The position numbers were made by a program, and so were the translations under genes. From Hippopus hippopus (taxonomy: Eukaryota > Mollusca > Bivalvia > Cardiida > Cardiidae), in assembly GCA_946811185.2 (NCBI GenBank), contig OX328101.1:17902122-17966121 (forward strand): a stretch of DNA of 64,000 nt, given 5' to 3'. The notes under the pieces are model-generated. The model did no database searches, was not told where the DNA came from, and saw only the letters and a program-made list of their open reading frames with translations. Positions 48,005 to 64,000 of this stretch are shown one piece after another (position 1 is the stretch's first letter; each line of letters opens with the position of its first letter).

Positions 48005-48268
48005 AACCATGCTCTGTGAAAAGGGGGCCTAATACATCTGCGAAAAGTATCGACCCATGTCAGCCTGCGCAGTCCGCGCAGGCTGACATGGGTCGAAACT
48101 TTTCGCTATCGGTCAATTTTCTGCCCGTTAAAGGACCGGTTTACCGCATGATTTAGTCGATTGTTTTACAAAACGGATTTTTAGGGATCCATAATTATAT
48201 GATAACTTTCTAGGTATGATGTATCACGGATATGCATTAAGCTCTCTTTTGCCAGAGCAAGGCTCATA
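48005..48268. repeat. MITE family 3
   Basis: TGAACCATGCTCTGTGAAAA ... CCAGAGCAAGGCTCATA, with the perfect inner palindrome CATGTCAGCCTGCGCAGTCC / GCGCAGGCTGACATG at 48056-48090. Confidence 0.8.
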
Positions 48269-48762
48269 ATTATGTATCAACGAAGAACTTCGAAAAATAG
48301 AGAAACGTTTCAACTCTTTACCAGAAAACAAATGTCTATATCCGACGACAGTTCAAAATAGACTCAAATAATAACATTTGTTTATTAAAGAGTATGAAAA
48401 ATTGAGAAGAGGAGAGGATACTTGTTTTTTGAAGGGGTTTTCTCCTTTTCCAACGATACTTTTCAAAGATTTTACATCATGGGACCGTAAAAAATGTGCT
48501 CGTTGGCAAAGAGCTGAAGGTACACATATCATCTTCATGACTCATATATGAATTAACATTTCGTAAAACCTAGAAACCTTTATCAGCGTCATAGGCGAAA
48601 ACAGGCGCTTCTGCGGACGACATAGATCACGATTAGATGGCACAGAACGTGCAGTCTAATCATGAACCTATACTGTCCGCTTTTTCAGTCAGACCTGTAG
48701 AACAGAAATTTCTCAGAGTTTCAGTAGATTGTATGTTCAGCTATCATAAGAGGTCGAGTATA

Positions 48763-49027
48763 TATGAGCCATGCTCTGGCAAAAGGGGGCTTAATGCATC
48801 TCCGTGATCCATGGCATCAAGCAAGCCATCACATACTTATGGATCCATGATATTCACTTTTTTCAACAACCAATTTAATCATGAGGTAGACGGGTCCTTA
48901 GACGTACAGAAAACTGACCAATAGCGAAAAGTTTCGGCCCAGGTCAGCCTGCGCGGACTGCGCAGGCTGACCTGGGCCGAAACTTTTCGCAGATGCATTA
49001 AGCCCCCTTTTCACAGAGCATGGTTCA
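48763..49027. repeat. MITE family 3, opposite orientation
   Basis: TGAGCCATGCTCTGGC ... CACAGAGCATGGTTCATA, flanked by TATATA on both sides; the inner palindrome lies near 48938-48982. Confidence 0.8.
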
Positions 49028-49294: not shown

Positions 49295-50848
49295 CTAAAA
49301 AAACATTATTTGAGCAACATTTTATTTATCGTCTGTAAATGCTTTCAACATGGACGAATTTAAGATTTTGTTGTCTGGTAAAAAGTTAAATTGATTTTGA
49401 GGATATGATGGATTCATGTCAGACCACAAAGAATCTGCAAATTAGTCTTGATCTTTCTTGACACTTGACCAAAAGAGAAAATTTAGACTTGTAACAATCG
49501 AAGCATTCGCAGACGACAAAATAAATTTGGCTTAATGATGCGAGTTGTGTTTGGAGAGGTTATCAGCGTCTATAACATAACCTCCCTTGTTTTCAGCGTA
49601 ATATACCCATTAAGCATTTTCTTATCTTATACACGTTTGATATAATATTGTGTGATGTCATTTTTGACGTCATTTTATACGTATTTCATAGAAGTGAATA
49701 GATTTGATGGATATTACTGCGATGCATCCATAGATCTATAATGTATGATCTATAATTTGTGAAATACAGTTATGTGATAAAAAGAATCTGATATGAATTG
49801 GCGTTTGAGATAAAATTTCATTAAACTCGTCAAGGAAAAAAAGTTATTAAGCTCGCCAAAGGCTCGCCTAATAGATCTAGATCTAATATTTTCCCTTGAC
49901 GCGTTTAATAAAATTTTATCTCAAACACCATCTCATGTCAGATCCTATATTTCTCCCCTTTGCAAACAATTTGTTATAGGGTTTTCACTAATTTGCGACT
50001 CTAAGCTTATCAGCAGCCTGAAACTTGTTCAGCCTACAACTTATGCTTATACACACAGATTTGCCTGTCTGTTTCGTGGTTTAGTTTGTCCTATTATATT
50101 TTCAATGGTTTTGAATCATGCATGATGCAGACAAACTTTTTTTTTTGTGTTATTTCTATTAAATTTTCGTACAACTTTGTTTTTCAATCTGTTAGTGATA
50201 AGTTATTCCTTTTTAGTCATTGATGTATAAGCTGACTTTTGACCTACTTCTTGTATCGAATGAAAAGTAGTAGAATATGATTTTTTAAAAAAAATGTGGC
50301 TAAATTTATTCTGCAGGCCTTTTGCGGGCATTTGCACGTGGATATAATGCAGAAGACAGGAGAAATGCCCCTCCTGATTCACATGCACTGGTTTTTTAAC
50401 AGGCTTCACTCTTTATAACCCAATAAATTAAACACGGTTACCAACTGTATTACCTGCCGAAACCACCCCCAGTCAAATGTCAGTGTTTTTTTTTTTTTAC
50501 ATAGTTATTGATTCGAATGAATAAGTCCTTGATTATTGTGTTCTGCGATAACTCGTCTTCAGTTTGATACATGGAACGGAACAGATAGATTAATAATCAA
50601 GGGAGTGATAAAAGTCGAAACTCTGGAAGCGGACAAGTACTACTATTTCTGCTCCCACCACGAGTTGGAAGTTTCCATACCGCAGTGTATAAATTGAATG
50701 AATCTTACTGGTCAATGAGAGTTGAATACCACCTTTGAAATAACGGCATGATGCAAAATATAGTTATCAAGATTCGTCAAATATGCCATACTAGAAGTCT
50801 GACTGGTCAAAACTACGAGTGTTTCTATCATCACGCCAGTAGTATAGG

Positions 50849-50905
50849 AGGGTCGCATAGACCCCCTGACAGGCCTGGTCAGGGGTCTATACGACCCTCC
50901 CTAAG
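50849..50905. repeat. 54-bp GC-rich hairpin at the probable left end
   Basis: GGAGGGTCGCATAGACCCCC, then TGAC-AGGCCTG-GTCA, then the complement, form a stem of about 24 bp with two mismatched pairs. Just to its right the motif ACCCTGARNGNAATTT recurs four times (50923-51090). Candidate element terminus. Confidence 0.6.
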
Positions 50906-51121
50906 TGCCGTACATCACCACCCCTGAAAGAAATTTGTCCTATTCTACCACCCTGAAAGAATTTGCATTTTTTAAAATACCCAGGGTCTCTACCCTGAGA
51001 GGGATTTAGCATTCAAAATGGCGGCCTTATGACTGACAGTCTGGGTAAAAATCCACCCAAAGAGACTACCCTGAGCGGAATTTTTCTGCAAAAAAGGGAA
51101 AGTTAAGGGAAAGTAAAGGGT

Positions 51122-51665
51122 AAGCCTGATCACTGAGTTGAACTTAGTTTTTTCACCCTATGAATGATTTTCTCTCTTTCTAAAAGCCTGACCATTGAGT
51201 TGGACTTAGTTTTTTCTTCACCTATGTATGATTTTTCTTTCTAAATGTCTGAGCACTGAGTTGGACTTAGTTTTTTTCACCCTATGAATGATTTTCTCTC
51301 TTTCTAAAAGCCTGACCATTGAGTTGGACTTAGACTTTTTTCTGCATCTCTATGAATGATTTCTCTTTTCTAAAAGGAATTTATCCCTATATCACTGAGT
51401 CGGACTTAGCTTTTTTCACCCTATGAATGATTTTCTTTCTTTCTAAAAGCCTGAGCATTGAGTTGTACTTAGTTTTTTCTTCACCTATGTATGATTTTTT
51501 TCTTTCTAAATGTCTGAGCACTGAGTTGGGACTTAGTTTTTTTCACCCTATGAATGATTTTCTCTCTTTCTAAAAGGTTGACCATTGATTTGGACTTAGT
51601 CTTTTTCTGCAATTATGAATGATTTTTTCTTTCTATAAGACTGAGCACTGGGTTGGACTTAGTCT
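51122..51665 (-). repeat. 60-62-bp tandem repeat array, outer left copy
   Basis: About nine units of CTGAGTTGGACTTAGTTTTT then CACCTATGAATGATTTTCTC then TTTCTAAA(T/A)GTCTGAGCA, diverged about 10-20 per cent. The same unit forms the arrays at 53215-53660 and 63590-64000 (inverted). Function unknown; an enhancer or replication role is conceivable. Confidence 0.85.
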
Positions 51666-51803
51666 TTTTCTGAGTTTTTTTACTCTTTGCAGTATAACTC
51701 TCTGGAGTATAACTCTTTTGGAGTGCAACTCTTCTAAAAGAAGTTTGACAATTTGAAGAAATGACAATTTTGAAGAAAGATAGAACTTTCGTGGTAGCTG
51801 GTT

Positions 51804-51843
51804 AGTCCTGAAAAGGACTGTTGGGTTAGCTCTGAAAAGAGCT
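51804..51843 (-). terminator. Paired histone-type 3' stem-loops, array unit 1
   Basis: AGTCCT-TTTC-AGGACT (51804-51819) and AGCTCT-TTTC-AGAGCT (51828-51843) on the minus strand, both six-base stems with the TTTC loop. Confidence 0.75.
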
Positions 51844-51951
51844 GTGACAATATGAAGAAATGACAACTTGAAGATAGAACTTTCGTCTGACAGCTTGAAG
51901 ATAGATCTTTCGTCTGACATCTTGAAGATAGATCTTTCGTGGTAGATGCTT

Positions 51952-51991
51952 AGTCCTGAAAAGGACTGTTGGGTTAGCTCTGAAAAGAGCT
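51952..51991 (-). terminator. Paired histone-type 3' stem-loops, array unit 2
   Basis: Same two stem-loops at 51952-51967 and 51976-51991. Confidence 0.75.
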
Positions 51992-52099
51992 GTGACAATT
52001 TGAAGAAATGACAACTTGAAGATAGAACTTTCGCCTGACAGCTTGAAGATAGATCTTTCGTCTGCCATCTTGAAGATAGATCTTTCGTGGTAGATGGTT

Positions 52100-52139
52100 A
52101 GTCCTGAAAAGGACTGTTGGGTTAGCTCTGAAAAGAGCT
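52100..52139 (-). terminator. Paired histone-type 3' stem-loops, array unit 3
   Basis: Same two stem-loops at 52100-52115 and 52124-52139. Confidence 0.75.
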
Positions 52140-52299
52140 GTGACAATTTGAAGAAATGACAACTTGAAGATAGAACTTTCGTCTGACAGCTTGAAGGTAG
52201 AACTTTCGTCTGACAATTTGAAGAAATGACAATTTGAAGAAAAGATAGAACTTACGTCTGACAATTTGAAGAAAGGTAGATCTTCCGTGGTAGATGGTT

Positions 52300-52340
52300 A
52301 GCCCTGAAAAGGGCTGTTGGGGTGGTCCTAAAAAAGGACC
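52300..52340 (-). terminator. Stem-loops at the 3' end of the 78-aa gene
   Basis: GGTCCT-TTTTT-AGGACC (52324-52340, followed by ACCCC), then AGCCCT-TTTC-AGGGCT (52300-52315, followed by AACCATC), 20 and 45 bases after the stop. The second has the exact histone-type loop. Confidence 0.8.
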
Positions 52341-52360
52341 TGGTTTTGGAGGTTGTGTTT

Positions 52361-52597
52361 TTAAGCACAACCTCCAACCTTCCTGCAGGCTGGGCAGCTA
52401 CTTGCTGCCCGCCTCTTTACCCTCTTCAGCTGGTGTTCGTCTAACCCAAAGTCCAACGAGAACGAAGGCTCAGTGTCATCGTTCCAATCTTCAGTAACTG
52501 GTACTGTGAACTCCTTCTTCTTTCCGTCCATCTTTTTTTCTTTGGATGCCAGCTGGGCTAGTTCGGAAAAACTCATCTCTCTCAACGCACACTCCAT
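52361..52597 (-). CDS. 78-aa cassette protein with C-terminal CxxC
   Basis: ORF with ATG at 52597, about 50 bases after a TATA box. Residues 1-30 are helical and charged, the middle is acidic (EDWNDDTEP), then a basic patch (LKRVKRR) and a cysteine tail (SSCPACRKVGGCA), perhaps half a zinc-binding site. No family recognised. Its cassette context (class A promoter upstream, histone-type stem-loops downstream) supports it as real. A nuclear or DNA-linked accessory role is only a guess from composition. Confidence 0.65.
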   Translation of the reverse strand: MECALREMSFSELAQLASKEKKMDGKKKEFTVPVTEDWNDDTEPSFSLDFGLDEHQLKRVKRRAASSCPACRKVGGCA

Positions 52598-52647
52598 GTT
52601 TTATCAACTTGAAGAGAATGAATGATGTGCGGGAAAATGCCGCTGGG

Positions 52648-52815
52648 TTTTATAGCTTTTCAGACGGATTGAACTAATTGACCCATGATGTCATTTTCTC
52701 CTATGTTTTTCCCGCGTCGGCGTTTCATGCTGTTTTGGCTCCAAAATTAATGTTATCCAATCAGAATTATCGTTGTTTTTCTAATACTAAATGTTTTATT
52801 GTTGACCAATCCGTG
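52648..52815 (-). promoter_or_regulatory. Class A promoter of the 78-aa gene
   Basis: Minus strand, reading toward the gene: CCAAT boxes (inverse) at 52806-52810 and 52757-52761, E2F-consensus TTTCCCGC on the plus strand at 52708-52715, CRE-like TGATGTCA at 52686-52693 (one base off), and TATA CTATAAAA at 52648-52655. The whole block is nearly identical to 54192-54352. Confidence 0.75.
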
Positions 52816-52935
52816 GTTTTGTTACATTTTTTTCTTGTTCGGGTTAGAAAAAAGTAGAGTTTAACTAACCTATGACTTTTTTTGATTATGAGTCTTCTGA
52901 CAAAATGAAAAGAAAGATGTTTATTTAAGATAGTT

Positions 52936-52951
52936 AGCCCTGAAAAGGGTT
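52936..52951 (-). terminator. Histone-type 3' stem-loop of the 46-aa gene
   Basis: AACCCT-TTTC-AGGGCT, one mismatched pair, 27 bases after the stop and followed by AACTATC. Confidence 0.65.
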
Positions 52952-52978
52952 GCTTTTTTGTACAGAATGCACTTTTTT

Positions 52979-53119
52979 TTAGCCTCCTCTCTTTCTTTTG
53001 ATTGATTCCATTTTATCTAGCATTTGCATCAGATGCTCAATTTCATGTCTGATATATCTGAAACGTTCTCTTTCTTCTAACCAGAAGAGCAATGAGAGAA
53101 AAAATGTTAATCCAAACAT
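52979..53119 (-). CDS. 46-aa small membrane protein cassette
   Basis: Too short for routine ORF calls. ATG at 53119, stop at 52979-52981, and an in-frame TAA eight codons upstream of the ATG fixes the start. Residues 1-13 are hydrophobic (MFGLTFFLSLLFW), followed by a charged amphipathic helix (LEERERFRYIRHEIEHLM) and a basic end (KRKRGG). Most likely a small single-pass or peripheral membrane protein. Support comes from a TATA box (ATATAAAAC) at about 53190, about 75 bases upstream, and a stem-loop 27 bases downstream, the same layout as its neighbours. No known family. Confidence 0.55.
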   Translation of the reverse strand: MFGLTFFLSLLFWLEERERFRYIRHEIEHLMQMLDKMESIKRKRGG

Positions 53120-53183
53120 TGTGGGATACTGGTTCAGGTTTTACGAAAAGTTAATGGTGAATGAGAAAAAATAATCAAGAGTT

Positions 53184-53198
53184 TGGTGTTTTATATGT
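53184..53198 (-). promoter_or_regulatory. TATA box of the 46-aa cassette
   Basis: Minus strand reads CACATATAAAACACC. No E2F or CRE site is visible here, so this differs from class A. Confidence 0.5.
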
Positions 53199-53214
53199 GT
53201 AATGGATCACTTTT

Positions 53215-53660
53215 TAGTTTTTTTTCATCCTATGAATGATTTTTTCTCTCTAAATGGAATTTGTCCCTATATCACTGAGTTGAACTTAGATTTTTTTTGC
53301 ACTATAAATGATTTTTTCTAAATGTCTGGCTGTTGAGTTGAACTTAGTTTTTTCTGCATCTATGAATGAATTCTCTTTCTAAATGTCTGAACGCTGAGTT
53401 GGACTTAGTTTTTTTTCTGTATCTATGAATGAATTCTCTTTCTAAATGTCTGAACACTGAGTTGGACTTAGTTTTTTTACCCATATGCTATTAGGAATGC
53501 TTTATTTTTTACTTCTATCACTACTTAGACTTTAAGGGTTTTTTCTTTCTAAATGTCTAAGCACTTAGCTGGGGATTAGTTTTTCTGCATCTATGAATGA
53601 TTTTTTCTTTTCTATTTGCCTAATCATTGAGTTGGGATTAGTCTTTTTTCTGAGTTTTTT
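53215..53660 (-). repeat. 60-bp tandem repeat array, inner left copy
   Basis: About seven units of the same repeat as 51122-51665. It matches, inverted, the array at the window's right edge: AATGGAATTTGTCCCTATAT at 53254 corresponds to base 64000. Confidence 0.85.
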
Positions 53661-53789
53661 TTTTTACTCTCTGAAGTGTGGATCTTTGAAGTGTGAGTCT
53701 TTGGAGTGCAACTCTTCTAAAAGAAAGAAGTTTGACAATTTGAAGAAATGACAATTTGAAGAAAGATAGATCTTTCATGGTAGATGGTT

Positions 53790-53805
53790 AGCCCTGAAAA
53801 GGGCT
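53790..53805 (-). terminator. Histone-type 3' stem-loop of the 104-aa gene
   Basis: Perfect AGCCCT-TTTC-AGGGCT, 34 bases after the stop, followed by AACCATCTACCATGAAAG. Confidence 0.82.
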
Positions 53806-53839
53806 GTTTTTTGAGAAGGGCTGATTTTTTTGAAAATAT

Positions 53840-54154
53840 TTATTCAGTATCGGCATCAGTCGATTCGCTGTCTGACTCACTCCTTTCAGCGGCGATTTGC
53901 GCGCGGAAAAGACGGTCTACCTCCTCTGTTTTTGAAATAACATACTGAAAATACATTTCAAGCATGCCCTCAATAATGAGTTCCTTCATCCGAAGGTTAT
54001 AACAGAACACCCTGTTATTAGCAAGCTCAGCCCTCTCGTATCGTCTTCTCACTCCAACTAAGCGCTGTTTAAGTAAGACGATTTGTCTCCTTGCTCTTGT
54101 TAACTTTCGCTCGGCATCTATCCAAGTGACGAGGAGTGATGGTCTTGAAGCCAT
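53840..54154 (-). CDS. 104-aa basic helical cassette protein with acidic tail
   Basis: ATG at 54154, about 40 bases after the TATA box. Predicted mostly alpha-helical: residues 14-45 are Arg/Lys/Leu-rich (ERKLTRARRQIVLLKQRL), residues 55-90 mixed, and the end is Ser/Asp/Glu-rich (SESDSESTDADTE), reminiscent of a casein-kinase-2-type acidic tail. No recognised family. It is part of a complete cassette and present in the left arm only, the right arm lacking it at the corresponding position. DNA or RNA binding is possible from its charge but unproven. Confidence 0.68.
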   Translation of the reverse strand: MASRPSLLVTWIDAERKLTRARRQIVLLKQRLVGVRRRYERAELANNRVFCYNLRMKELIIEGMLEMYFQYVISKTEEVDRLFRAQIAAERSESDSESTDADTE

Positions 54155-54191
54155 TGTGAAAATGAAATGTATGGAAAATAAATCGCCGAGA

Positions 54192-54352
54192 TTTATAGTT
54201 TTTCAGACGGATTGAACTAGTTGACCCATGACGTCATTTTCTCCTATGTTTTTCCCGCGTCGGCGTTTCATGCTGTTTTGGCTCCAAATTAATGTTGTCC
54301 AATCAGAATCAACGTTTTATTTATAATACTAAATGTTTTATTGTTGACCAAT
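54192..54352 (-). promoter_or_regulatory. Class A promoter of the 104-aa gene
   Basis: TATA CTATAAA (54192-54198), perfect CRE TGACGTCA (54229-54236), E2F-consensus TTTCCCGC (54251-54258), CCAAT at 54299-54303 and 54348-54352. Nearly identical to the blocks at 52648-52815 and, in part, 61674-61755. Confidence 0.8.
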
Positions 54353-54483
54353 CCGTAGCTTTGTTGCATTTTTTTCTTGTTCGGGATAGAAAATAACTAG
54401 AGTTTGACTAATCTATGACTTTTTTTTGATTGTAAATCTTTTTGACAATTTTAAAAAAGATAGAACTTTCGTGGTAGATGGGT

Positions 54484-54499
54484 AGCCCTGAAAAGGGCT
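54484..54499 (-). terminator. Histone-type 3' stem-loop of the 88-aa gene
   Basis: Perfect AGCCCT-TTTC-AGGGCT followed directly by ACCCATC, the same ACCCA that follows the stem in animal histone mRNAs; 33 bases after the stop. CACGAAAGTTC lies 9 bases further on, where the U7-binding element would be. Confidence 0.88.
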
Positions 54500-54532
54500 G
54501 TTTTGTTTTTGGAGGCTGTGTTTTTTCCACTT

Positions 54533-54799
54533 CTAATGGCAGCACCCGAAATTTGCTTGGCAAATGGGGCGTGCTGTAATCTTCCTCCCAAATTCGATAT
54601 CAACCAAAATGATATCCGGTGTTGTCTTTAATAATAGTTGAACTAATCTTTCGCCGAGATCTTTGTATGGCTGTGTTATACGTTGTAGTTGGTTTTGTTC
54701 CTCCTCTCCTACGAGATGAGTGGTTAGTTGCAATAACTGCTGCCCGGCATTTAGATACTCTTGGAGAACCTCACGTAGTTGATGATTTACCTCCTCCAT
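54533..54799 (-). CDS. 88-aa helical cassette protein, left-arm copy
   Basis: Start chosen at the ATG at 54799 (MEEVNHQLREVLQEYL) because the right-arm copy begins there; the upstream in-frame codons have only a GTG. Heptad-like helices over residues 1-45 (coiled-coil likely), then KTTPDIILVDIEF and a cysteine end (FGCCH). No known family. It carries a 12-codon segment absent from the right-arm copy (63189-63419). Class B promoter (TATA at 54891-54897), histone-type stem-loop 3'. Confidence 0.72.
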   Translation of the reverse strand: MEEVNHQLREVLQEYLNAGQQLLQLTTHLVGEEEQNQLQRITQPYKDLGERLVQLLLKTTPDIILVDIEFGRKITARPICQANFGCCH

Positions 54800-54890
54800 A
54801 TTGATATTGCTTCCGAATATTGACACTGCTTTCGAAGTGATCGTTAGCTGAGAATCAAGAAATGGTGATTGTATGAAAATAACGTTGGAC

Positions 54891-54990
54891 TTTATACGTT
54901 TAAGGAGGATTGAAATTTTTTAAAGAGCTCGGACCGGGTAGAAAGCACATACATTTTTCCATGCTACGTTTCATGCTAATATAGCAAAAA
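54891..54990 (-). promoter_or_regulatory. Class B promoter of the 88-aa gene
   Basis: TATA GTATAAA at 54891-54897 in a context (TTTCAATCCTCCTTAAACG upstream) shared with 61850-61890 and 63065-63097. No E2F or CRE site. Confidence 0.7.
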
Positions 54991-55077
54991 AAGTTATGAG
55001 ACGCTGTATGGAAAAAATGTAGACAGAACAAGTCTTTTGGGAAAAAACAGAATGAAGAGCTCTATTGTTTTTTGAAC

Positions 55078-55101
55078 TTTTATTTATTGAACTTTTATTT
55101 A
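55078..55101 (-). terminator. Poly(A) signals for the 218-aa / PolB side
   Basis: Overlapping AATAAA on the minus strand (AGTAAATAAAAGTTCAATAA). Mirror image of 62887-62907. Confidence 0.6.
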
Positions 55102-55134
55102 CTGAACAGAACTAAACAATGAAACATTTTTTTG

Positions 55135-55380
55135 CAATGCATCATGAAAAAATTTCTTGACAATGAAAAAATTTCTTGACAATGAAAAAATCACAAGTAA
55201 ACATTTTTACAATACAGCATAAAAAACATTTTCTTGACAATGAAAAAATCGCACTGAAATATTTTTTCACAATGAATTATTCACAATGAATTAATTGCAA
55301 TGAATTAATCACAATGAATTATTTTTTTCGCAATGAATTATTTTTTCGCAATGAATTATTCGCAAAAACAGTATATAACA
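55135..55380. repeat. AT-rich short direct repeats in the left arm
   Basis: Repeats of TTTCTTGACAATGAAAAAA and about seven CAATGAATTA units. The right arm (62720-62860) has only the first kind, so this tract expanded or contracted after the arms separated. Confidence 0.75.
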
Positions 55381-55386
55381 AATTTT

Positions 55387-56043
55387 TTACAATGCAAATT
55401 CGCAAATACCACGAGTTTCACATTTGTTTTCATATTCCGTAATGTCTTTATGCAATTGGTCATACCCCAAAAACATTGTATACTCACTGTCCATATCGTC
55501 GAAATCTCGTAGTCCTATGAATGGAGCAACATGTCTATAAGCGTCTTTTGTTGAAAGAGCTGAATATACCACTTCTTCTGTAACATCTCTATCAAATAGA
55601 ATATACCCTACCATGGTTTCCTTTGATTCTCCGTAGGAATCATGAACAGATCCTTTTTTGTAGCGTAAGTAAAAGTCAAATAGAACTGATTTCATTTTCA
55701 GAACGTTAAGAAAACTTTCTTCTGTTGTTCCTATGACAAAAAATGTCCATCGACTTGTGGATCGAAACAGCTTACTAATAACATTGTCTTTCATACAGCT
55801 ATCTGCTAAATAAGTCTTGAGAACGAGATCCAACCCCGAATCGTCCACCATCGTTGCAATAAAGTTGATTATACCATACACTTTGTCGGACTTTTCTCCT
55901 TTTGCAACCCACTTAAACAATTTTCCGATCCAAATTTTCACACAGAAAAATTTAATGTTAAGCTGTGTTCGTTCATCAAGTGTATGCTGTCGAACAAATT
56001 CTCCATAAATTTTTTCACGTAGTTCTATTGGTAACGGCAACAT
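55387..56043 (-). CDS. 218-aa protein of the PolB element, unknown function
   Basis: ATG at 56043, 80 bases after the PolB stop, same strand, so possibly co-transcribed and sharing the poly(A) signals at 55.08-55.10 kb. Composition is that of a soluble mixed alpha/beta protein; features are an N-terminal LPLPIELREKIYGEF helix, an aromatic-rich middle (SRWTFFVIG) and an acidic DDMDSEY near the end. No motif identifies it. Its last 16 or so codons (EYENKCETRGICEFAL) lie inside the inverted repeat: the same DNA recurs past the stop of the 231-aa gene on the other side. Confidence 0.72.
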   Translation of the reverse strand: MLPLPIELREKIYGEFVRQHTLDERTQLNIKFFCVKIWIGKLFKWVAKGEKSDKVYGIINFIATMVDDSGLDLVLKTYLADSCMKDNVISKLFRSTSRWTFFVIGTTEESFLNVLKMKSVLFDFYLRYKKGSVHDSYGESKETMVGYILFDRDVTEEVVYSALSTKDAYRHVAPFIGLRDFDDMDSEYTMFLGYDQLHKDITEYENKCETRGICEFAL

Positions 56044-56120
56044 GATTGTTTTTGACCAACGGCTAATATTTTTTCCCCGACTTACTTTGACTGTTTGCTA
56101 CACAACAATGTGATATAGAA

Positions 56121-58253
56121 TTATTTTCTCAAACTTTTATAACCATAGGGTACAGTATCAGTACCATTTACAATAACTCTCTTGGTGTATACAGAGCGAA
56201 ACGTTTTTGTTTGTGGTTCACTGGTAACCGTTCTATCTCTGTGTCTTTTAATTCTACAATCATACTGAATTTTGATTTCTATTGTGCGATCCAAAGCACA
56301 TTTCGAATATGTATCGAAATTCACCACCTGTTTTGTATTGTAATCCAGAGTAATCCCCTTTACTTTACATTTGCTTATCTCTTCTCCATCTTTTGTTTTC
56401 ATTTTGTAAGCATAATTCTTAGGCCCAAGCCCTCTGAATTGAGTAATTTTACAATCAGGCTCTTCATCAGTCCATTTTCCTAACCGGCTGTTAATAATAG
56501 GAGGATTCCATAATTCAGGGTCGTGAATGTACATACAACTATCTGTATCGAAATACAGAACTCTATCTTTTAACTTTTCAAGAACGCTGTACAATTCCAA
56601 CCTTGCATAAGCTGTTACGTAAGATCCTACTACCACATTGGCTGTAGCGTGGGTGTCAATATGCTCCAACTTTGATTCATAGTTAACCAAGATGAATGAA
56701 CAGTCCTCGTCAAAGATTTCTACATGCTTTACAATGAAATTGGGATTGGTGACTAATTCAAAATATTTAGACGGATCACTGATGTATTCCGTCTGGGTCA
56801 TTTTTTCACGCTGAGCTAATTTTCCCCAAAGACAGTTCAACATAATCTTAGCAAATGATCTTCTCCCAGGATTTCTTTGAATACAACTTGGATCAAGACG
56901 AACACCTTCCGCCTTCTCATATTCACAAACGAACTGATCTTTTTCTGAGTCTGATTGACACCAACCTGGATAACCACTGGCTTCTTGCTTAATTTTCAAG
57001 AAATTGTCCACATAATGTTTAAAGAACTGATCTGATACAGAATTGAAATGCCAAACTTCATACACTTGTAATAATCGATAACCGCAGTCAAGAGCCTTGA
57101 ATAATTCAAAAGTAACCCAAGTTCCGACCAAAGCCCTCTCTTCTTTACCATGCCTACAAATGTTTGAGCTTTCTTCTGCACATTTCATACAGAGTGGAAA
57201 CATCATTTTGTTGTTACAGTGAAGTGGGAGAACGGGGTGAAACAAATCAGTTGGAGGTAAAACTTTACACTTGATTAATCCCTCATATTGACGAATATTG
57301 TTCATGTCAATATTCTCAGCAGACAAAATTTTTGGCTGACCTACAGGATAGGATTTGTGTTTACAAACATAAGGGTATAGAGAACAGATATCGATGTACT
57401 TGATTTCCTTTTTGTTTTTTTTTTCATTAACATCATATCCAATTTTTATTGCATTACATCTTCCCCCGGACAAACCATCCCTCGGATCGATAGGGTCCCA
57501 ATGTGGATATAACTTTTCAATGAGTTTTTTGTACTCTTTATCCTTCATCTTAGCATCAAATTCGTGTTCCCAAATGTACACTACATTATAACCCATTTTT
57601 TCGATATCTGCTATACGTTCAAAGGTACGTTCGTACAATTCAGACATGGGTTTTCCATTAATAGGATTGATCTGTTTTCGATCTGTATAGCATACAGGAC
57701 AACCATGATACAAATCCCCAAGAAATTCATAAACAGTGTTTGATTGACGGTGAAAACCATCTACACTATATTTCCCGATTTGAACTTCACCACCATTTTT
57801 TGCATGCTGAATATTAATACCTTTTTCCTGAGCTACGCTTTGAACCCATCGTATCGCTTTCATAGAAAAGCGACGTCTGGATGAGTCTTTGCTTGAAATG
57901 ATAGCTATTTGATTTTCTGGCAAATATTTGCTTCGCCACACCTTGTTACAGGCATCTGCGATGGTAATCGCCTCTAAAAATGGACAAATACCACCCTGTT
58001 CGATAAACAGCTTTCTGAATTCAGCACACCCTCGTCTGAGGATATCAACATCTGACCTACAGTACAATTCCATCTCCTTCTGAAAATTGAATTCCTCACC
58101 ATTTCGAACTTTGTCATTATACCAAACTATGAATTTTGACCTAGCCTCTTCAGACATTGAGTCGGGTTTGTAATAAGACATATCCAAGTAGGGTCCAATG
58201 TAACTCCAAAATTCATCTGTATTTGCCCAGTGAGGAAAGTAACCTTTTTTCAT
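56121..58253 (-). CDS. polB: Family B DNA polymerase, C-terminal part (polymerase domain)
   Basis: 710 residues from an ATG at 58251-58253. Visible, in order: exonuclease motif III (YCRSDVD, residues 64-70); an inserted endonuclease-like block (SVDGF, YEFLGDLYHGCPVCY and IWEHEF, 163-232); GGRCNA (263-268); motif A IDICSLYP (287-294); a long TPR-like region typical of protein-primed enzymes; motif B KIMLNCLWGK (469-478); motif C FDTDS (568-572); and the KxY region PKNYAYK (611-617). All metal-binding aspartates are present. It makes DNA on a protein primer in related Polintons, adintoviruses and bidnaviruses. It is in the same frame as the upstream ORF, separated by one stop and one codon, so this is the 3' part of one gene, not a gene of its own. 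Confidence 0.92.
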   Translation of the reverse strand: MKKGYFPHWANTDEFWSYIGPYLDMSYYKPDSMSEEARSKFIVWYNDKVRNGEEFNFQKEMELYCRSDVDILRRGCAEFRKLFIEQGGICPFLEAITIADACNKVWRSKYLPENQIAIISSKDSSRRRFSMKAIRWVQSVAQEKGINIQHAKNGGEVQIGKYSVDGFHRQSNTVYEFLGDLYHGCPVCYTDRKQINPINGKPMSELYERTFERIADIEKMGYNVVYIWEHEFDAKMKDKEYKKLIEKLYPHWDPIDPRDGLSGGRCNAIKIGYDVNEKKNKKEIKYIDICSLYPYVCKHKSYPVGQPKILSAENIDMNNIRQYEGLIKCKVLPPTDLFHPVLPLHCNNKMMFPLCMKCAEESSNICRHGKEERALVGTWVTFELFKALDCGYRLLQVYEVWHFNSVSDQFFKHYVDNFLKIKQEASGYPGWCQSDSEKDQFVCEYEKAEGVRLDPSCIQRNPGRRSFAKIMLNCLWGKLAQREKMTQTEYISDPSKYFELVTNPNFIVKHVEIFDEDCSFILVNYESKLEHIDTHATANVVVGSYVTAYARLELYSVLEKLKDRVLYFDTDSCMYIHDPELWNPPIINSRLGKWTDEEPDCKITQFRGLGPKNYAYKMKTKDGEEISKCKVKGITLDYNTKQVVNFDTYSKCALDRTIEIKIQYDCRIKRHRDRTVTSEPQTKTFRSVYTKRVIVNGTDTVPYGYKSLRK

Positions 58254-58256
58254 TTC

Positions 58257-60113
58257 TTAAAGACCAAAGGTGGGTGGAAATTTTGCCAAACCAAAACTCA
58301 TGAAATTGAAAGAATCGATCAGACGTACACCATTCAGTTCTAACTTCATAATATTGTTTCCATTCATGATCAATTTTGGAAGTTTTAACCCAACTTTGAC
58401 AATATAGTCAAGAATGAACTGACCGTCATAGCCTTTGAAATTATGGGCAATAGCCGTAACCCCTTTATGATGTTTTGAAAAGAGCCAGTTGCAAAATTTA
58501 CTCAAAGTTTCTTCACCTTGAAAAATAACTTCCCGACCCTCTTCAAATTCACTGCATGTAGAACAATGAAAATCAAGTGATTTATCGATACATACATCAC
58601 ACGCTCTGTGTGCGATACAATAATTCGGGATGTGTACGCCTGTGTCTTGTTTGCATTCAAAATCAAAGAAAATAAACTGTGGTTTTTTGACTACAGAAGA
58701 ACTCGTCTCGTCATCGCTGTCATGGTTCAACTTACTTTGGTAAGGTTGAATATAGCATTGATGAGAAAAGTTAACAATTCTCTTACAGATATGACATCTT
58801 TTCTTTCCATTGCAAACATGATTTTTCTTTCTGTCATGATATTGTGCACCGCATTTCGAGCAGAGTTTTACTAATACACAAATGGATTTCTTTTCTTTAC
58901 CTTGTACATTTCTGTGATTTTCAAAGCATTCAGCACTAAAAAATCGTCTATTGCAATAACTGCAAACATATTCTTTTGATTCTGATGGACATTTTCCTTT
59001 GCGATAACAACCTTTGCAGATATTTGAACAAGCATGATTTTCCCGGTTAGAGTAACCCACATCACAGAACTCACAATAATATCCACAACTAAGAAAACCT
59101 TTGATAGATTTGATGTAGTCATAATGGTTTTGATGAAAGTACAAATGTATGATCTTACTATTGGCTTTCACTTCTGGATGCTTAAATATTTTTTCCACTT
59201 TTGAATGCTGTTGGTGAACTTTAATGACATAGCCTTTTTCATACAAGAATGTTTGAATTTTTTTGTATTCATCAATTCCTACAGACTGGGTTGGTGAAAC
59301 TCCAGCTTCATTTAACAATTTCTCAGCTTCAGTCTTTTGAAAAAGGCGTTTTGAACGACAAATACGACGCCATTTTCTATTCCATACTTCGGTGTTTTCA
59401 CGTTCACTGTAGCAAATTCCCACAACAACAGCTCTTGCAAAACATAGTTGGTCATGATTACCAATTTGAATAATAGATTTCTTCTTCTGGGCAAAAAACT
59501 TCGAATCTAATTCTGACGATCTATATTTTTGTTTTCCGCTACCACTTGGTGGTATTGTATGTGTAATGTCAAATGTCATTAATCCATCGTTCAAGACGAA
59601 ATCTGTATTCGATTGTAAAACTCGTTCAATTTCATTCAGCATAGTTTCACCTTGTAACTGGCCTGCAGCTAAAAAAGGAATATGGATTCCTATTTCCAAC
59701 AAAGGATGATTGATGGTAATTCTAATCATGTCCGTAGGGTTAGCATTTAACTTTCGAATGATTTCATGGGTAACATCGTCAAATAATCCAAGTAGTCTCT
59801 GAGGTGTTAATTCTTCAAATTTCTTAAAACTCAGCATCAGCACATGTGATTCTGTTTTAAATTTTCTTGACTTCTTATTTCCCCTTTCTGTTAAATCATA
59901 TAGACTTTTCATGTCTAAGTTAGAGTTGATACTTTCATCGTCACTGTCATTTTCTTCTTTCAACGGTTTAGTTTTTTTCTTTTTTATTGCTGGAAATATC
60001 TCATCGTCACTTTCTTCTTTCAAAGGTCTAGTTTTTTTCTTTTTTGTTGGTGGAAACACCTCATCGTCACTTTCGCTGTCTGAATAGGTTATTATTCTTT
60101 TTCTTTTACCCAT
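58257..60113 (-). CDS. polB: Family B DNA polymerase, N-terminal part (OTU-like, zinc and exonuclease domains)
   Basis: Start taken at the ATG at 60113 (618 aa); the longer frame begins with TTG, on the TATA box. Residues 15-60 hold two acidic-then-basic repeats (DDE.FP..KKKKT.PLKEE). Residues 215-335 look OTU-protease-like: NHDQLCFARA (D221, C224) and NHYDYI (H330). Residues 344-453 are cysteine/histidine-rich zinc-ribbon-like sequence. Exonuclease motif I is FFDFE (D484, E486) and motif II AHNFKGYDGQF (about 557-567). The frame ends at TAA 58257-58259 and resumes two codons later in the polymerase-domain ORF. Whether the TAA is read through, is a recent disabling mutation, or is a sequencing error cannot be told here. 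Confidence 0.9.
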   Translation of the reverse strand: MGKRKRIITYSDSESDDEVFPPTKKKKTRPLKEESDDEIFPAIKKKKTKPLKEENDSDDESINSNLDMKSLYDLTERGNKKSRKFKTESHVLMLSFKKFEELTPQRLLGLFDDVTHEIIRKLNANPTDMIRITINHPLLEIGIHIPFLAAGQLQGETMLNEIERVLQSNTDFVLNDGLMTFDITHTIPPSGSGKQKYRSSELDSKFFAQKKKSIIQIGNHDQLCFARAVVVGICYSERENTEVWNRKWRRICRSKRLFQKTEAEKLLNEAGVSPTQSVGIDEYKKIQTFLYEKGYVIKVHQQHSKVEKIFKHPEVKANSKIIHLYFHQNHYDYIKSIKGFLSCGYYCEFCDVGYSNRENHACSNICKGCYRKGKCPSESKEYVCSYCNRRFFSAECFENHRNVQGKEKKSICVLVKLCSKCGAQYHDRKKNHVCNGKKRCHICKRIVNFSHQCYIQPYQSKLNHDSDDETSSSVVKKPQFIFFDFECKQDTGVHIPNYCIAHRACDVCIDKSLDFHCSTCSEFEEGREVIFQGEETLSKFCNWLFSKHHKGVTAIAHNFKGYDGQFILDYIVKVGLKLPKLIMNGNNIMKLELNGVRLIDSFNFMSFGLAKFPPTFGL

Positions 60114-60271
60114 CGTTTTAGCTCTGAGTGAAAAGACAATAATGCAGAAGTGAGAAAAAACTAACAATTTATATAGCCTCTCCGTTGTAACAGTGTATAA
60201 ATAGAGACGATAGTTGTGAAAATCTAATCATTCTCCTACTCAATCTCAGACAGTACAGCTGATAAAAAAAT
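60114..60271. promoter_or_regulatory. Bidirectional promoter between PolB and the zinc-knuckle gene
   Basis: Minus-strand TATA (GGCTATATAAATTG, 60165-60178) faces PolB; plus-strand TATA (GTGTATAAATAGAG, about 60194-60207) faces the 283-aa gene. The two are only about 20 bases apart. No E2F or CRE consensus. Confidence 0.7.
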
Positions 60272-61123
60272 ATGAGCGAGTTAAAGCTGCAAAATACACC
60301 ACCACTTAGAAAGAGGGTGTATCTGTATGTCAATCCATACACCCACGATTATGAGATCAGCAATATACCATCAAAGTATGATGTTAAACATATCGGAAAC
60401 TATGTGGGATCATTTTTATCCCAGCAACATTTAGAAGAAAAAGATGTTTACCGTACTACCAGCTACAGAGTTTTGGATCAAGCCACGATTGACAAACGAT
60501 ATGGTGCGAATGGCGAGAGAACAAATATTTGTTTCACATGCAACGAAGCAGGACATTGGGCCAAAGAATGTCCAGAAAAAGAAAATCAGCTAGGAACAAT
60601 TGTTTTTGTCTACGTGAATCCGCACAGTCACGACATTGAGATTTTACCATCGTTTTACAACGTTGATGGTCTCAAAGATATAAAATTCGTCGGGACACTA
60701 AATTCATTCTGCAATGGAAATACATGGAAAAAAAGTTCACCACAAGCTACATCCTCATCGGTTGAAACTCAGATCGTAGACATGCAGAGCGACACAACGG
60801 ATATCAACGATTCAGAAATCTGCAAAATAACAGAACAGGTAGAGAAAAAAATATCTACAAATGATAATCTAAGAAAACAACAAACTTTGGATCTAAAAAA
60901 CAACGAATTTCCTGCAGAACCGGGTTGCTCGTACGGAGAGGAAAAACAGCAAAACAACGAAAAGAAGAAAAAACGAGTAACAAAGAACTATTTCTTTTGC
61001 AAATCAACAAAACATGAGGATAAAATCTGTCCAGATATGGTATTAAAAACCAACGAAAGGAAAAGAAAACGTAAAACCAAATGTGAATCTGACATTCCAA
61101 AGAAAAAAAGAAAAACATACTGA
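60272..61123 (+). CDS. 283-aa zinc-knuckle protein with duplicated N-terminal motif
   Basis: ATG at 60272. A CCHC zinc knuckle, CFTCNEAGHWAKEC (C-x2-C-x4-H-x4-C), lies at about residues 87-100, as in nucleic-acid-binding Gag and CNBP-type proteins. On either side are two copies of an unusual segment: VYLYVNPYTHDYEI (16-29) and VFVYVNPHSHDIEI (111-124), each followed by a Y/FVG-type segment, so the protein probably arose from an internal duplication of a small fold. A degenerate knuckle (FFCKSTKHEDKICPD) and a strongly basic tail (KKKRKTY) close it; the tail is a likely nuclear localisation signal. A single-stranded nucleic-acid-binding or replication-accessory role is plausible beside PolB. 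AATAAA at 61266-61271 provides its 3' end; no histone-type stem-loop. Confidence 0.75.
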   Translation: MSELKLQNTPPLRKRVYLYVNPYTHDYEISNIPSKYDVKHIGNYVGSFLSQQHLEEKDVYRTTSYRVLDQATIDKRYGANGERTNICFTCNEAGHWAKECPEKENQLGTIVFVYVNPHSHDIEILPSFYNVDGLKDIKFVGTLNSFCNGNTWKKSSPQATSSSVETQIVDMQSDTTDINDSEICKITEQVEKKISTNDNLRKQQTLDLKNNEFPAEPGCSYGEEKQQNNEKKKKRVTKNYFFCKSTKHEDKICPDMVLKTNERKRKRKTKCESDIPKKKRKTY

Positions 61124-61265
61124 GTGAAAAAAAGATTTCAACACAATATAGAATTTAAAAAAAGACTGACTTGATTTTTTCATTTTTTGTCTTTACAGTT
61201 CATTCATTTTTTTGTCTTTTACAGTTCATGATTTGATTTTTTCATTTACATAAGTTCTTTTTTGA

Positions 61266-61271
61266 AATAAA
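61266..61271 (+). terminator. Poly(A) signal of the 283-aa gene
   Basis: AATAAA 140 bases after the stop codon, in AT-rich DNA. Confidence 0.55.
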
Positions 61272-61379
61272 AAATATAAAATAATTACTTCTTACTTTTG
61301 ACTTTTTTCTAGTTGTGATTGTAAGTCTTTTGACTTTTTGACAATTTTGAAGAAAGAAAGATCTTTCGTATAGATAGCT

Positions 61380-61395
61380 AGCCCTGAAAAGGGCT
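61380..61395 (-). terminator. Histone-type 3' stem-loop of the 68-aa gene
   Basis: Perfect AGCCCT-TTTC-AGGGCT, 31 bases after the stop, followed by AGCTATC. Confidence 0.82.
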
Positions 61396-61426
61396 TTTTT
61401 GAAGGATCTCACATTGACATTCAGCT

Positions 61427-61633
61427 CTACGACTCCTCCGGCCAATCCACCGGGATGATTTCGCACCCACAGTGTTCGCAACAAGTCGATGAACCTTCAT
61501 CATCATCGTAAAATCCTTCATCTGTATCTGGACAGTTATGCTTCTGTCCAAGATACTCAAGTATGGTAAAACATTTTCCACACTCTATCAGACATCTGTT
61601 TGCACAGTGAGGACACACAAGAATTCGAACCAT
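61427..61633 (-). CDS. 68-aa zinc-ribbon-like cassette protein
   Basis: Start placed at the ATG at 61633 (MVRILVCPHC), 40 bases downstream of the TATA box; the longer frame would begin upstream of that box. Two cysteine pairs (CPHC at 7-10, CGKC at about 18-21), then an acidic stretch (DTDEGFYDDDEG) and CCEHCGC near the end, suggest one or two small zinc-binding sites. No family recognised. It is the only class A cassette inside the unique core, lying tail-to-tail with the 283-aa gene. Confidence 0.68.
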   Translation of the reverse strand: MVRILVCPHCANRCLIECGKCFTILEYLGQKHNCPDTDEGFYDDDEGSSTCCEHCGCEIIPVDWPEES

Positions 61634-61673
61634 TCTGGAACAAATATGATTTTTATGTAAAATATCACTGGGC

Positions 61674-61755
61674 TTTATAGCTTTACAGAAGGATTGAACT
61701 AGTTGACCCATGACGTCATTTTCTCCTATGTTTTTTCCCGCGTCGGCGTTTCATT
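61674..61755 (-). promoter_or_regulatory. Class A promoter of the 68-aa gene
   Basis: TATA CTATAAA (61674-61680), CRE TGACGTCA (61711-61718), E2F-consensus TTTCCCGC (61734-61741). The shared block ends at about 61755; the CCAAT part is replaced by the start of the next promoter. Confidence 0.78.
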
Positions 61756-61849
61756 AACATTGCCCAATTAAATCGATAGTTATATTGGTGTTTTTTACCA
61801 CTCCTAATTCGGTGTCACACAGTTCAATCCCGGTGTTTTCCGTCAGGTC

Positions 61850-61890
61850 CGCACTCTTTAAATATTTCAATCCTCTGTAAACGTATAAAA
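61850..61890 (+). promoter_or_regulatory. Class B promoter of the 231-aa gene
   Basis: TATTTCAATCCTCTGTAAACGTATAAAA context with TATA at 61883-61889; similarity to the 76/88-aa promoters continues through the leader (TTCTCAGCTAACGATCACTT). Confidence 0.72.
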
Positions 61891-61981
61891 CTCAGCGTTA
61901 TTTTTATACAATCACCATTTCTTTGATTCTCAGCTAACGATCACTTCGCAAGCAGTATCAATATTCAGAAACAGTTTCATT

Positions 61982-62677
61982 ATGAAGCACAACTTAGATG
62001 AAATCAACTTGGACGATTTTCCACCAGTGGAAAACAATGGAGACGTTCTTTCATCAGTTATAAATTCGACAATCATCAATCCGTCACCGGAGTTAAATTC
62101 AACAATCATCAATCCGTCACCGGTGTTAAATTCGACAATCATCAATCCACCGACGGTGCTGGACAACATTTATGAAGCGGTAAAGCAGTTAAATTTGAAA
62201 CAAGATAGCATGATGGCCCGCATCATAGATCAACTGGAGACTTTAAACAGACATTTGGAGGAAATTAAAACTTTAAGCGCAAGTACTGATCAGCTCAGTA
62301 GAAATATCGAGGTACTACGCCAACAGGATCAGTGCATTTCAACAGCTCCTGTGAAGATCCCTGTGGAGTTCGACTTTGATAAATCCAATCTTCACAAGTT
62401 AGTGGACTCTATCGTAAGTGTTGTGAAGAAAAATCAACCAAAGAAAAAACAACCAGAGGAAAAACAACCGAGAAAAACAACAAAACGGAAATCTGAGGAA
62501 GACGATAGCCATCTCCACAAGAAACAGCGAGTTGATCAAAACTCAACTACACCAATAATGACCGGTCAGGGCAAATACGGGAAAAACATTGATAACCACG
62601 TTGATTTCAAGATCCCGAAAAAACCAAAGACAGAGCGAAAACAACCAAGAAAAAACAACAAAACGGTAGGAATATGA
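61982..62677 (+). CDS. 231-aa protein: triple repeat, coiled coil, basic tail
   Basis: ATG at 61982. Residues 29-58 contain three near-identical copies of (L)NSTIINPSP. Residues 60-112 are heptad-like (VKQLNLKQDSMMARIIDQLE, HLEEIKTLSASTDQL), a probable coiled coil. Residues 128-150 form a short ordered piece, and the rest is Lys/Gln/Pro-rich with repeated QPKKKQPEEKQPRKTTK-type basic motifs, a likely nuclear or DNA-binding tail. Function unknown; a structural or terminal-DNA-associated role would fit but is speculation. Its stop codon falls at the inner edge of the right inverted repeat. Confidence 0.7.
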   Translation: MKHNLDEINLDDFPPVENNGDVLSSVINSTIINPSPELNSTIINPSPVLNSTIINPPTVLDNIYEAVKQLNLKQDSMMARIIDQLETLNRHLEEIKTLSASTDQLSRNIEVLRQQDQCISTAPVKIPVEFDFDKSNLHKLVDSIVSVVKKNQPKKKQPEEKQPRKTTKRKSEEDDSHLHKKQRVDQNSTTPIMTGQGKYGKNIDNHVDFKIPKKPKTERKQPRKNNKTVGI

Positions 62678-62886
62678 AAACAAATATGAAACTTGTGGTA
62701 TTTGCGAATTTGCATTGTAAAAAAAATTTGTTATATACTGTTTTGCGAATAATTCTGTTTTTATGCTGTATTGTAAAAAAATGTTTCCTTGTGATTTTTT
62801 CATTGTCAAGAAATTTTTTCATTGTCAAGAAATTTTTTCATGATGCATTGCAAAAAAAATGTTTCATTGTTTAGTTCTGTTCAGTA

Positions 62887-62907
62887 AATAAAAGTTCAAT
62901 AAATAAA
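62887..62907 (+). terminator. Poly(A) signals of the 231-aa gene
   Basis: Three overlapping or adjacent AATAAA hexamers about 210 bases after the stop; mirror of 55078-55101. Confidence 0.6.
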
Positions 62908-63029
62908 AGTTCAAAAAACAATAGAGCTCTTCATTCTGTTTTTTCCCAAAAGACTTGTTCTGTCTACATTTTTTTCCATACAGCGTCTCATAACTTTTTT
63001 TGCTATATTAGTATGAAACGTAGCATGGA

Positions 63030-63097
63030 AAAAATGTATGTGGTTTCTGCCAGACCCGAGCTTTTTAAAAATTTCAATCCTCCTTAAACGTATAAAG
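63030..63097 (+). promoter_or_regulatory. Class B promoter of the 76-aa gene
   Basis: TTTCAATCCTCCTTAAACG then GTATAAA at 63090-63096. Mirror of the 88-aa gene promoter. Confidence 0.7.
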
Positions 63098-63188
63098 CTC
63101 GGCGTTATTTTCATACATTCACCATTTCTTTGGCTCTCAGCTAAGGATCACTTCAGAAGCAGTATCAATATTCGGAAACAATATCAAT

Positions 63189-63419
63189 ATGGAGGAGGTA
63201 AATTATCAACTACGTGAGGCTCTCCAAGAATATCTAAATGCCGGGCAGCAGTTATTACAACTAAACACTCATTTTGTAGGAGAGGAGGAACAAAACCAAC
63301 TACAACGTATAACACAGCCCTACAAAGATCTCAGCGAAAGATTACTTCAACTATTTTTAAAGACAACGCTTGAAATCATCTTAGCCATTTGCCAAGTGAA
63401 TTTCGGGTGTTGCCATTAG
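63189..63419 (+). CDS. 76-aa helical cassette protein, right-arm copy
   Basis: ATG at 63189, MEEVNYQLREALQEYLNAGQ. Paralogue of the 88-aa gene (54533-54799): same length and sequence over the first 62 or so residues with about 10 substitutions, then a 36-base in-frame deletion removes 12 residues before the shared CQ.NFGCCH end. The frame has stayed open despite the changes, suggesting the protein is or was used. Confidence 0.7.
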   Translation: MEEVNYQLREALQEYLNAGQQLLQLNTHFVGEEEQNQLQRITQPYKDLSERLLQLFLKTTLEIILAICQVNFGCCH

Positions 63420-63452
63420 AAGTGGAAAAAAACATAGCCTCCAAAACAAAAC

Positions 63453-63468
63453 AGCCCTTTTCAGCGCT
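63453..63468 (+). terminator. Histone-type 3' stem-loop of the 76-aa gene
   Basis: AGCCCT-TTTC-AGCGCT followed by ACCCATC, 33 bases after the stop. One base pair of the stem is broken compared with the left-arm copy. Confidence 0.75.
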
Positions 63469-63589
63469 ACCCATCTAACACGAAAGTTCTATCTTTTTTA
63501 AAATTGTCATTTCTTCAAATTGTCAAACTTCTTTCTTTTAGAAGAGTTACACTCCAAAAAGAGATACACTCTAGAGAGTTACGCTGCAA

Positions 63590-64000
63590 AGAGCAAAAAA
63601 CTCAGAAAAAAGACTAAGTCCAAGTCAATGGTCAGACATTTAGAAAGAAAAAAATCATCCATAGATGCAGAAAAACTAATCCCCAGCTCAGTGCTCAGAC
63701 ATTTAGAAAGAAAAAACCCTTAAAGTCTAAGTAGTGATAGAAGTAAAAAATAAAGCATTCCTAATAGCATATGGGTAAAAAAACTAAGTCCAACTCAGTG
63801 TTCAGACATTTAGAAAGAGAATTCATTCATAGATACAGAAAAAACTAAGTCCAACTCAGCGTTCAGACATTTAAAAAGAGAATTCATTCATAGATGCAGA
63901 AAAAACTAAGTTCAACTCAACAGCCAGACATTTAGAAAAAATCATTTATAGTGCAAAAAAAATCTAAGTTCAACTCAGTGATATAGGGACAAATTCCATT
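63590..64000 (+). repeat. 60-bp tandem repeat array, right arm
   Basis: Inverted counterpart of 53215-53660; about six units (AAACTAAGTCCAACTCAGTG, CAGACATTTAGAAAG, ATTCATTCATAGATGCAG) and continuing out of the window. Confidence 0.85.

Follow-up and report, generated by a model that had tools for sequence, protein, structure and literature searches.

Histone-type 3′ stem-loops behind small genes of a Maverick-like element in the bivalve Hippopus hippopus

The described elements closest to the one reported here are the Mavericks (Polintons), which we take to be marked by long terminal inverted repeats, AG...CT ends and a 6-bp target duplication, and the adintoviruses, among them that of the coral Rhodactis. 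A stretch of 64,000 nucleotides (nt) from the genome of Hippopus hippopus (contig OX328101.1, positions 17,902,122 to 17,966,121; termed the window in what follows) holds an element that is Maverick/Polinton-type and adintovirus-like, spanning 50838 to about window coordinate 66415, past the window end. With the Rhodactis adintovirus it shares a DNA polymerase (PolB) of the protein-primed type, the PolB-C of that virus being 42% identical to the larger piece, of 710 amino acids (aa), of the element's PolB. It differs from Mavericks and adintoviruses alike in its many small genes with histone-type 3′ ends and in having no recognised integrase or capsid. Because an rve integrase and a capsid gene were not recognised in the window copy, we call the element Maverick-like rather than a full member.

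The element seems to contain two kinds of transcription unit. Its open reading frames (ORFs) of 218, 283 and 231 aa, together with PolB, have poly(A) signals, and its small genes are followed by the 3′ signal of the host's own histone genes, from which we think it probable that their mRNAs are processed by SLBP and U7, are not polyadenylated and belong to S phase. The case is built on the position and orientation of the stem-loops, their likeness to host histone ends, compensatory changes in the stems, downstream blocks present in a diverged copy, and a host gene for SLBP. In the literature, searched at the level of listings, no mobile element or virus turned up with 3′ ends of the histone type.

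Stem-loops behind the small genes

A first-pass annotation of the window had placed a histone-type stem-loop 27–45 nt past the stops of six small genes, always in gene-sense orientation. All six stem-loops are there, and in all six the loop reads TTTC in the sense of the gene. The genes are the following, with the distance from stop to stem-loop:

52361..52597, minus strand: 78-aa ORF, stem-loop at +45; second copy in the right repeat (locus L043); dN/dS 0.26 against its relative in L006
52979..53119, minus strand: 46-aa ORF, stem-loop at +27
53840..54154, minus strand: 104-aa ORF, stem-loop at +34; dN/dS 0.30 against the 97-aa ORF of the diverged copy L085
54533..54799, minus strand: 88-aa ORF, stem-loop at +33; dN/dS 0.20 against the 103-aa ORF of L085
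61427..61711, minus strand: 94-aa ORF; Met27 is the conserved start, giving the 68 aa annotated earlier, stem-loop at +31
63189..63419, plus strand: 76-aa ORF, a shorter relative of the 88-aa ORF, stem-loop at +33

These small genes look real because the ratio of nonsynonymous to synonymous change (dN/dS) is 0.20–0.30 in five of six comparisons, the sixth having saturated dS. Pfam gave nothing at or above cut-off for the 78-, 46-, 104-, 88- and 94-aa ORFs. The family of the 94-aa ORF is zinc-ribbon-like, and none of its 20 database relatives bears a functional name.

The six-base stem described earlier is perfect in four of the six cases; those at 52936 and 63453 have one mismatch each, an A.C in the second pair and a C.C in the fourth, respectively. 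ACCCA, said to follow twice, stands directly after the stem-loops at 54484 and 63453, and the GAAAG said to follow most is present behind four of the six, the exceptions reading GGAAG (52300) and AAATAAA (52936) at that place. There is moreover a second downstream block, TTGTCA near +35, beyond what had been named. Eight further stem-loops lie in the right repeat, past the window end (L043), and others, with no ORF of their own, lie just outside the range annotated earlier:

51804..52139, minus strand: three tandem stem-loop pairs in 148-bp repeats, AGCTCT..AGAGCT then AGTCCT..AGGACT, 24 nt apart within a pair

In the gap from the 78-aa stop to the stem-loop of that gene there is a separate hairpin, GGTCCT-TTTTT-AGGACC followed by ACC (52325–52341).

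With up to three mismatches allowed, AGCCCTTTTCAGGGCT has 12 matches in the window against 0.19 expected, a number that none of 100 shuffles reaches. Genome-wide counts, here and below, cover 1.07 Gb in 34 contigs. The exact AGCCCTTTTCAGGGCT occurs 5,922 times, with GAAAG and TTGTCA at the right distances in 3,603 (reversed control 0), and the element-type pattern AGCYCTTTTCAGRGCT, which also admits some mispaired forms, is found at 10,072 places, with none for its reversed control. A chance origin or an artefact of low complexity, in favour of which there are sub-threshold Rfam scores (given below) and nothing else, is refuted by these shuffle and reversed-pattern controls, and we give it practically no credence.

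Pairing was assessed in a set of 28 stem-loops (12 distinct; two from the host and one from L086, a distant adintovirus-like contig), in which 95.8% of cells are paired and three of the six stem pairs are altered on both sides. The covariation score and the percentage paired were reached by none of 500 shuffles, the count of pairs altered on both sides by 26 and that of pair types by 150. The hairpins might instead work as DNA, as sites of terminal replication, integration or packaging, their histone likeness being incidental. Most of them lie in the terminal repeats or close by, and are repeated there, which would suit such a role, but the set distance behind ORFs, the single orientation relative to the gene (the inner 94-aa gene included), the loop that reads TTTC and not its complement, and the host-like downstream blocks make it quite improbable.

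Likeness to host histone 3′ ends

The host histone cluster lies on contig C15. In its unit L042, the terminal stem-loop is GGCCCT-TTTA-AGGGCC for H3, H4 and H2A and GGCCCT-TATC-AGGGCC for H2B; downstream, all four have a GA block at about +12 and TGTCA at about +31 to +35. The element signal has the same six-pair stem, TTTC-type loop, and GAAA and TGTCA blocks at matching distances, and by eye H2B (AGAAAGTTCT...TGTCAAT) is the host histone end closest to it. The element stem-loops are unlike those of host histones in standing behind non-histone genes, in occurring as tandem pairs and in scoring under the Rfam gathering threshold.

A covariance model made from the four host 3′ ends only (H3, H4, H2A and H2B) has 13 matches in the window at E ≤5, and the top nine are element stem-loops. 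Three of these are the second members of the tandem pairs (E 1.7e-6, 0.041 and 0.01); the others belong to the six small genes:

52300..52315, minus strand: stem-loop of the 78-aa ORF, E 1.8e-5 (52248–52320)
52936..52951, minus strand: decayed stem-loop of the 46-aa ORF, E 0.019
53790..53805, minus strand: stem-loop of the 104-aa ORF, E 2.6e-8 (53740–53810)
54484..54499, minus strand: stem-loop of the 88-aa ORF, with ACCCA, CGAAAGTTC and ATTGTCA behind it, E 5.2e-9 (54432–54504)
61380..61395, minus strand: stem-loop of the 94/68-aa zinc-ribbon-like ORF, E 4.1e-7 (61330–61400)
63453..63468, plus strand: stem-loop of the 76-aa ORF, E 1.1e-6 (63448–63518)

The four remaining matches have E 0.47–4.4; one of them is within the element, away from the stem-loops, and the best outside the element has E 0.47. 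On nine fetched loci the model has 23 matches at E ≤1, the best of them (4.6e-11) in L085. The two downstream blocks, picked from the host alignment, were also scored with the stem-loop omitted, against 40,000 60-mers drawn at random from the first 50 kb. On their own they reach p < 0.001 at five of the nine window sites and p ≤ 0.0017 at all five L085 sites.

The host encodes SLBP (PF15247, E 1.4e-13, two above-cut-off matches on C11). This, and the ranking of nine element sites first by a model of host histones, bears out at the level of sequence the earlier reading of a histone-type 3′ signal. The host-type pattern GGYYCTTWTMAGRRCCAC has 244 places genome-wide (control 0); among the places listed, all but three are in the histone cluster at C15:40.57–40.92 Mb, and of these three, one neighbours a further histone match. 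Element-type places outnumber host-type ones about 41 to 1, the two patterns being unequal in strictness.

Locus L085 is near saturation in its synonymous differences from the window (pS 0.59–0.91). Perfect stem-loops follow four of its small genes, at +34, +38, +70 and +37 (in the +70 case there is another ORF with its end at +27). A fifth stem-loop, imperfect, is behind a stretch resembling the 46-aa gene. In all three L085–window pairs whose stems are perfect, GAAAG and TGTCA are in place; in the 46-aa pair they are not. These facts bear on the possibility that one histone 3′ end was captured once and then passively copied with the repeats, with no present function. The copies are recent (PolB is 97–99% identical in 62 other scored copies), and their likeness is therefore partly descent; the percent identity downstream of the stem-loops in L085 is likewise without excess. 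Yet L085 has kept both blocks in those three pairs despite near saturation, its sites have the highest host-model scores of all, and a single element holds three paired stem types with compensatory changes, which leaves passive copying hardly credible.

Excess conservation of the signal in L085, suggested by a first comparison, was not upheld by a gap-tolerant alignment. At L085:1646–1725 a stem-loop is centred in a long inverted repeat, with the GAAAG stretch mirrored on both sides; this region has an Rfam microRNA-family match below the gathering score.

Two gene classes

The larger ORFs show the opposite arrangement from the small genes:

55387..56043, minus strand: 218-aa ORF, AATAAA at +287, nearest stem-loop at +887
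60272..61123, plus strand: 283-aa ORF carrying a zinc knuckle, AATAAA at +142, stem-loop absent within 1.2 kb
61982..62677, plus strand: 231-aa ORF, AATAAA at +209, nearest stem-loop at +775

The PolB gene runs on towards the 218-aa ORF, which has the AATAAA. In ten PolB loci of 5.1 kb no histone-like stem-loop was found; nine have one stem-loop-like match, within coding sequence.

For the small genes, SLBP would bind the element stem-loop and the U7 small nuclear ribonucleoprotein would pair with the GAAAG block. The RNA would be cut between the two, and the resulting mRNAs, without poly(A), would be restricted to S phase. A likely use would be to restrict the small proteins to cells that are replicating, in which the element's PolB is able to act. 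On the wider proposal, a two-class programme with the larger genes polyadenylated and the small ones limited to S phase through the histone pathway, we are evenly divided. Competition for SLBP and U7 and a wider spread of the device would also be possible: competition for SLBP because the copy number is high (about 40 element-type matches per host-type match), and spread beyond the window family because the distant L086 has one gene of this kind.

Promoter motifs provide weaker evidence. GATTGGN3-9TTAA has seven occurrences in 6 kb of the histone cluster and five in the 4 kb of L085; the element has two in 12.9 kb, and the 50 kb preceding it one. Upstream of the 78-, 104- and 94-aa genes there is GCGGGAAA; TGACGTCA or a variant precedes the 78- and 104-aa genes and spans the start of the 94-aa gene. 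Neither GCGGGAAA nor TGACGTCA was found upstream of the 46-, 88- and 76-aa genes or of four L085 genes. Histone-cluster-like CCAAT boxes and E2F-like motifs before three small genes would fit S-phase promoters.

Several observations weigh against histone-type processing of the small genes. Poly(A) signals lie near some of them: an AATAAA overlaps the 104-aa stop, and others are at +190 behind the 88-aa gene and at +53 and +178 behind the 46-aa gene. Rfam Histone3 (RF00032), which had been proposed as a check, matches eight window sites with 19.0–28.5 bits (E between 1.1e-4 and 0.4), and none comes up to the gathering score of 34. The first stem pair is A-U in the element and G-C in host histones. 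The downstream blocks on their own are not significant at three of the nine sites (51952, p 0.056; 52100, p 0.22; 52936, p 0.68) and reach only p 0.013 at 52300. L085 was chosen from a list of exact stem-loop matches, such that its stems, though not its downstream blocks, are identical by selection, and over the 45 nt behind the stem-loop its identity to the window is 71–86%, with neighbours at 54–88% and shuffled sequences at a mean of 63–65% (highest 83–89%). The E2F-like motifs are missing in L085, and cAMP response element (CRE) motifs show no enrichment in the element (0.16 per kb, against 0.14 in the rest of the window).

A host U7 small nuclear RNA, a further expectation, was not identified: the Rfam U7 model gave three sub-threshold matches, and the pattern CTTTCN{1,9}AATTTGTCTA was found at 141 places (95 with the reversed pattern), none of the 31 loci folded being U7-like by eye. 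A second U7 pattern (309 matches against 44 in the control) was set aside, the matches listed being largely variants of one repeat.

The small genes might accordingly be polyadenylated in the ordinary way, and their stem-loops bind SLBP for some other end, for example to sequester SLBP and U7 or as fail-safe terminators at the element ends. The AATAAA signals near several of these genes, the excess of element-type over host-type places (10,072 to 244) and the three tandem pairs without an ORF all accord with this. We nevertheless consider it unlikely: a stem-loop comes 27–45 nt after each small-gene stop, usually ahead of any AATAAA (at +329 for the 76-aa gene), with the reverse true of the larger ORFs; neither AATAAA nor ATTAAA occurs within 1.2 kb of the 78- and 94-aa genes; and host histone H2B likewise has a downstream AATAAA.

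The 46-aa gene stands apart. SLBP contacts the second G of the histone stem, and here that G is gone and an AATAAA (the one at +53) occupies the position where GAAAG is expected; the gene may for these reasons have switched to polyadenylation, its histone-type signal seemingly lost. The six-gene claim of the first-pass annotation thus holds at the level of sequence and is doubtful for this member, with its second stem pair and GAAAG both lost.

If the remaining small genes are indeed processed like histone genes, the element would be another natural user of the histone 3′-end pathway, and as a DNA element it would have a direct means of sensing S phase. Its stem-loops would form a natural collection of variant targets for recognition by SLBP and U7, and small-gene transcripts should be under-represented in poly(A)-selected RNA-seq.

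The element and its relatives

The principal structural features of the element are as follows:

50838..55438, unstranded: left terminal inverted repeat, its inner arms extending to 55438 by repeat search
56121..60113, minus strand: PolB region, broken here into 618-aa and 710-aa ORFs (58257/58253)
62669..64000, unstranded: right terminal inverted repeat, only the start of which falls in the window

By BLAST, the outer repeats (50838–53374 against the right flank) have 99.4% identity across 2,538 aligned positions, and the inner parts 88.9–92%. Immediately outside each end is CACGCC, a 6-bp target duplication, and the element ends are AG...CT. Ten ORFs scanned with Pfam gave no match to an rve integrase or a double jelly-roll capsid gene, a scan that a remote capsid would escape.

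DNA_pol_B_2 is matched in the 710-aa ORF (E 1.6e-32). At least 63 PolB copies were scored in the genome (that of the window and 62 others at 97–99% identity), out of 3,733 first-look candidates, and the frame is intact elsewhere, open to 1430 aa among scored copies. Named PolB relatives include those of Saccostrea, Mercenaria, Mytilus and Crassostrea, a Thiodiazotropha bin, and also insects, cnidarians and others; Thiodiazotropha bacteria live in lucinid clams. Scans of IMG/VR proteins found no relatives of the element, and a single stem-loop pattern match in IMG/VR was taken as chance, its surroundings being GC-rich and coding-like.

L086 (CALIZB010000033.1), a contig binned as bacterium, was reached by PolB search, its PolB being 37% identical to that of the window element. 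It differs from the window element in having an rve integrase and a TBP-like gene beside PolB, and a single histone-ended gene, which came from among the few relatives reachable. That gene, near the right end of L086 (L086:8042–8355), is an 89-aa C2H2 ORF with GGCCCT-TATC-AGGGCC 28 nt past the stop; the stem-loop scores 35.8 bits with Rfam Histone3, above gathering, and E 0.0012 with the host model. A database search found no relative of the 89-aa protein, and the gene could belong to flanking host DNA instead of the element. CRE and CCAAT-like motifs lie upstream of this ORF.

A separate adintovirus-like family resides in the Hippopus genome, with at least 98 matches to L086 PolB and at least 98 to a 428-aa ORF of L086 that we presume to be a hexon (Pfam gave no match). 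In one example (C9:46434683–46439156, at 46.43 Mb) PolB and the presumed hexon are about 2 kb apart. By eye, none of the best 63 scored PolB copies of the window family is within 50 kb of a scored hexon match. Resident elements of this other family could supply integrase in trans to the window element. The resident hexon-type Mavericks (C1–C4) appear to be without the exact host-type form, since none of the host-type places listed is on C1–C4; this concerns the exact form only.

Two other features of the window lie outside the element. At 48003–49027, 170-nt inverted arms and a 67-nt palindrome are present twice, resembling a miniature inverted-repeat transposable element. Two related ORFs of 421 and 414 aa, at 38063–39328 and 41419–42663 on the minus strand, presumably resemble glycosyltransferases.

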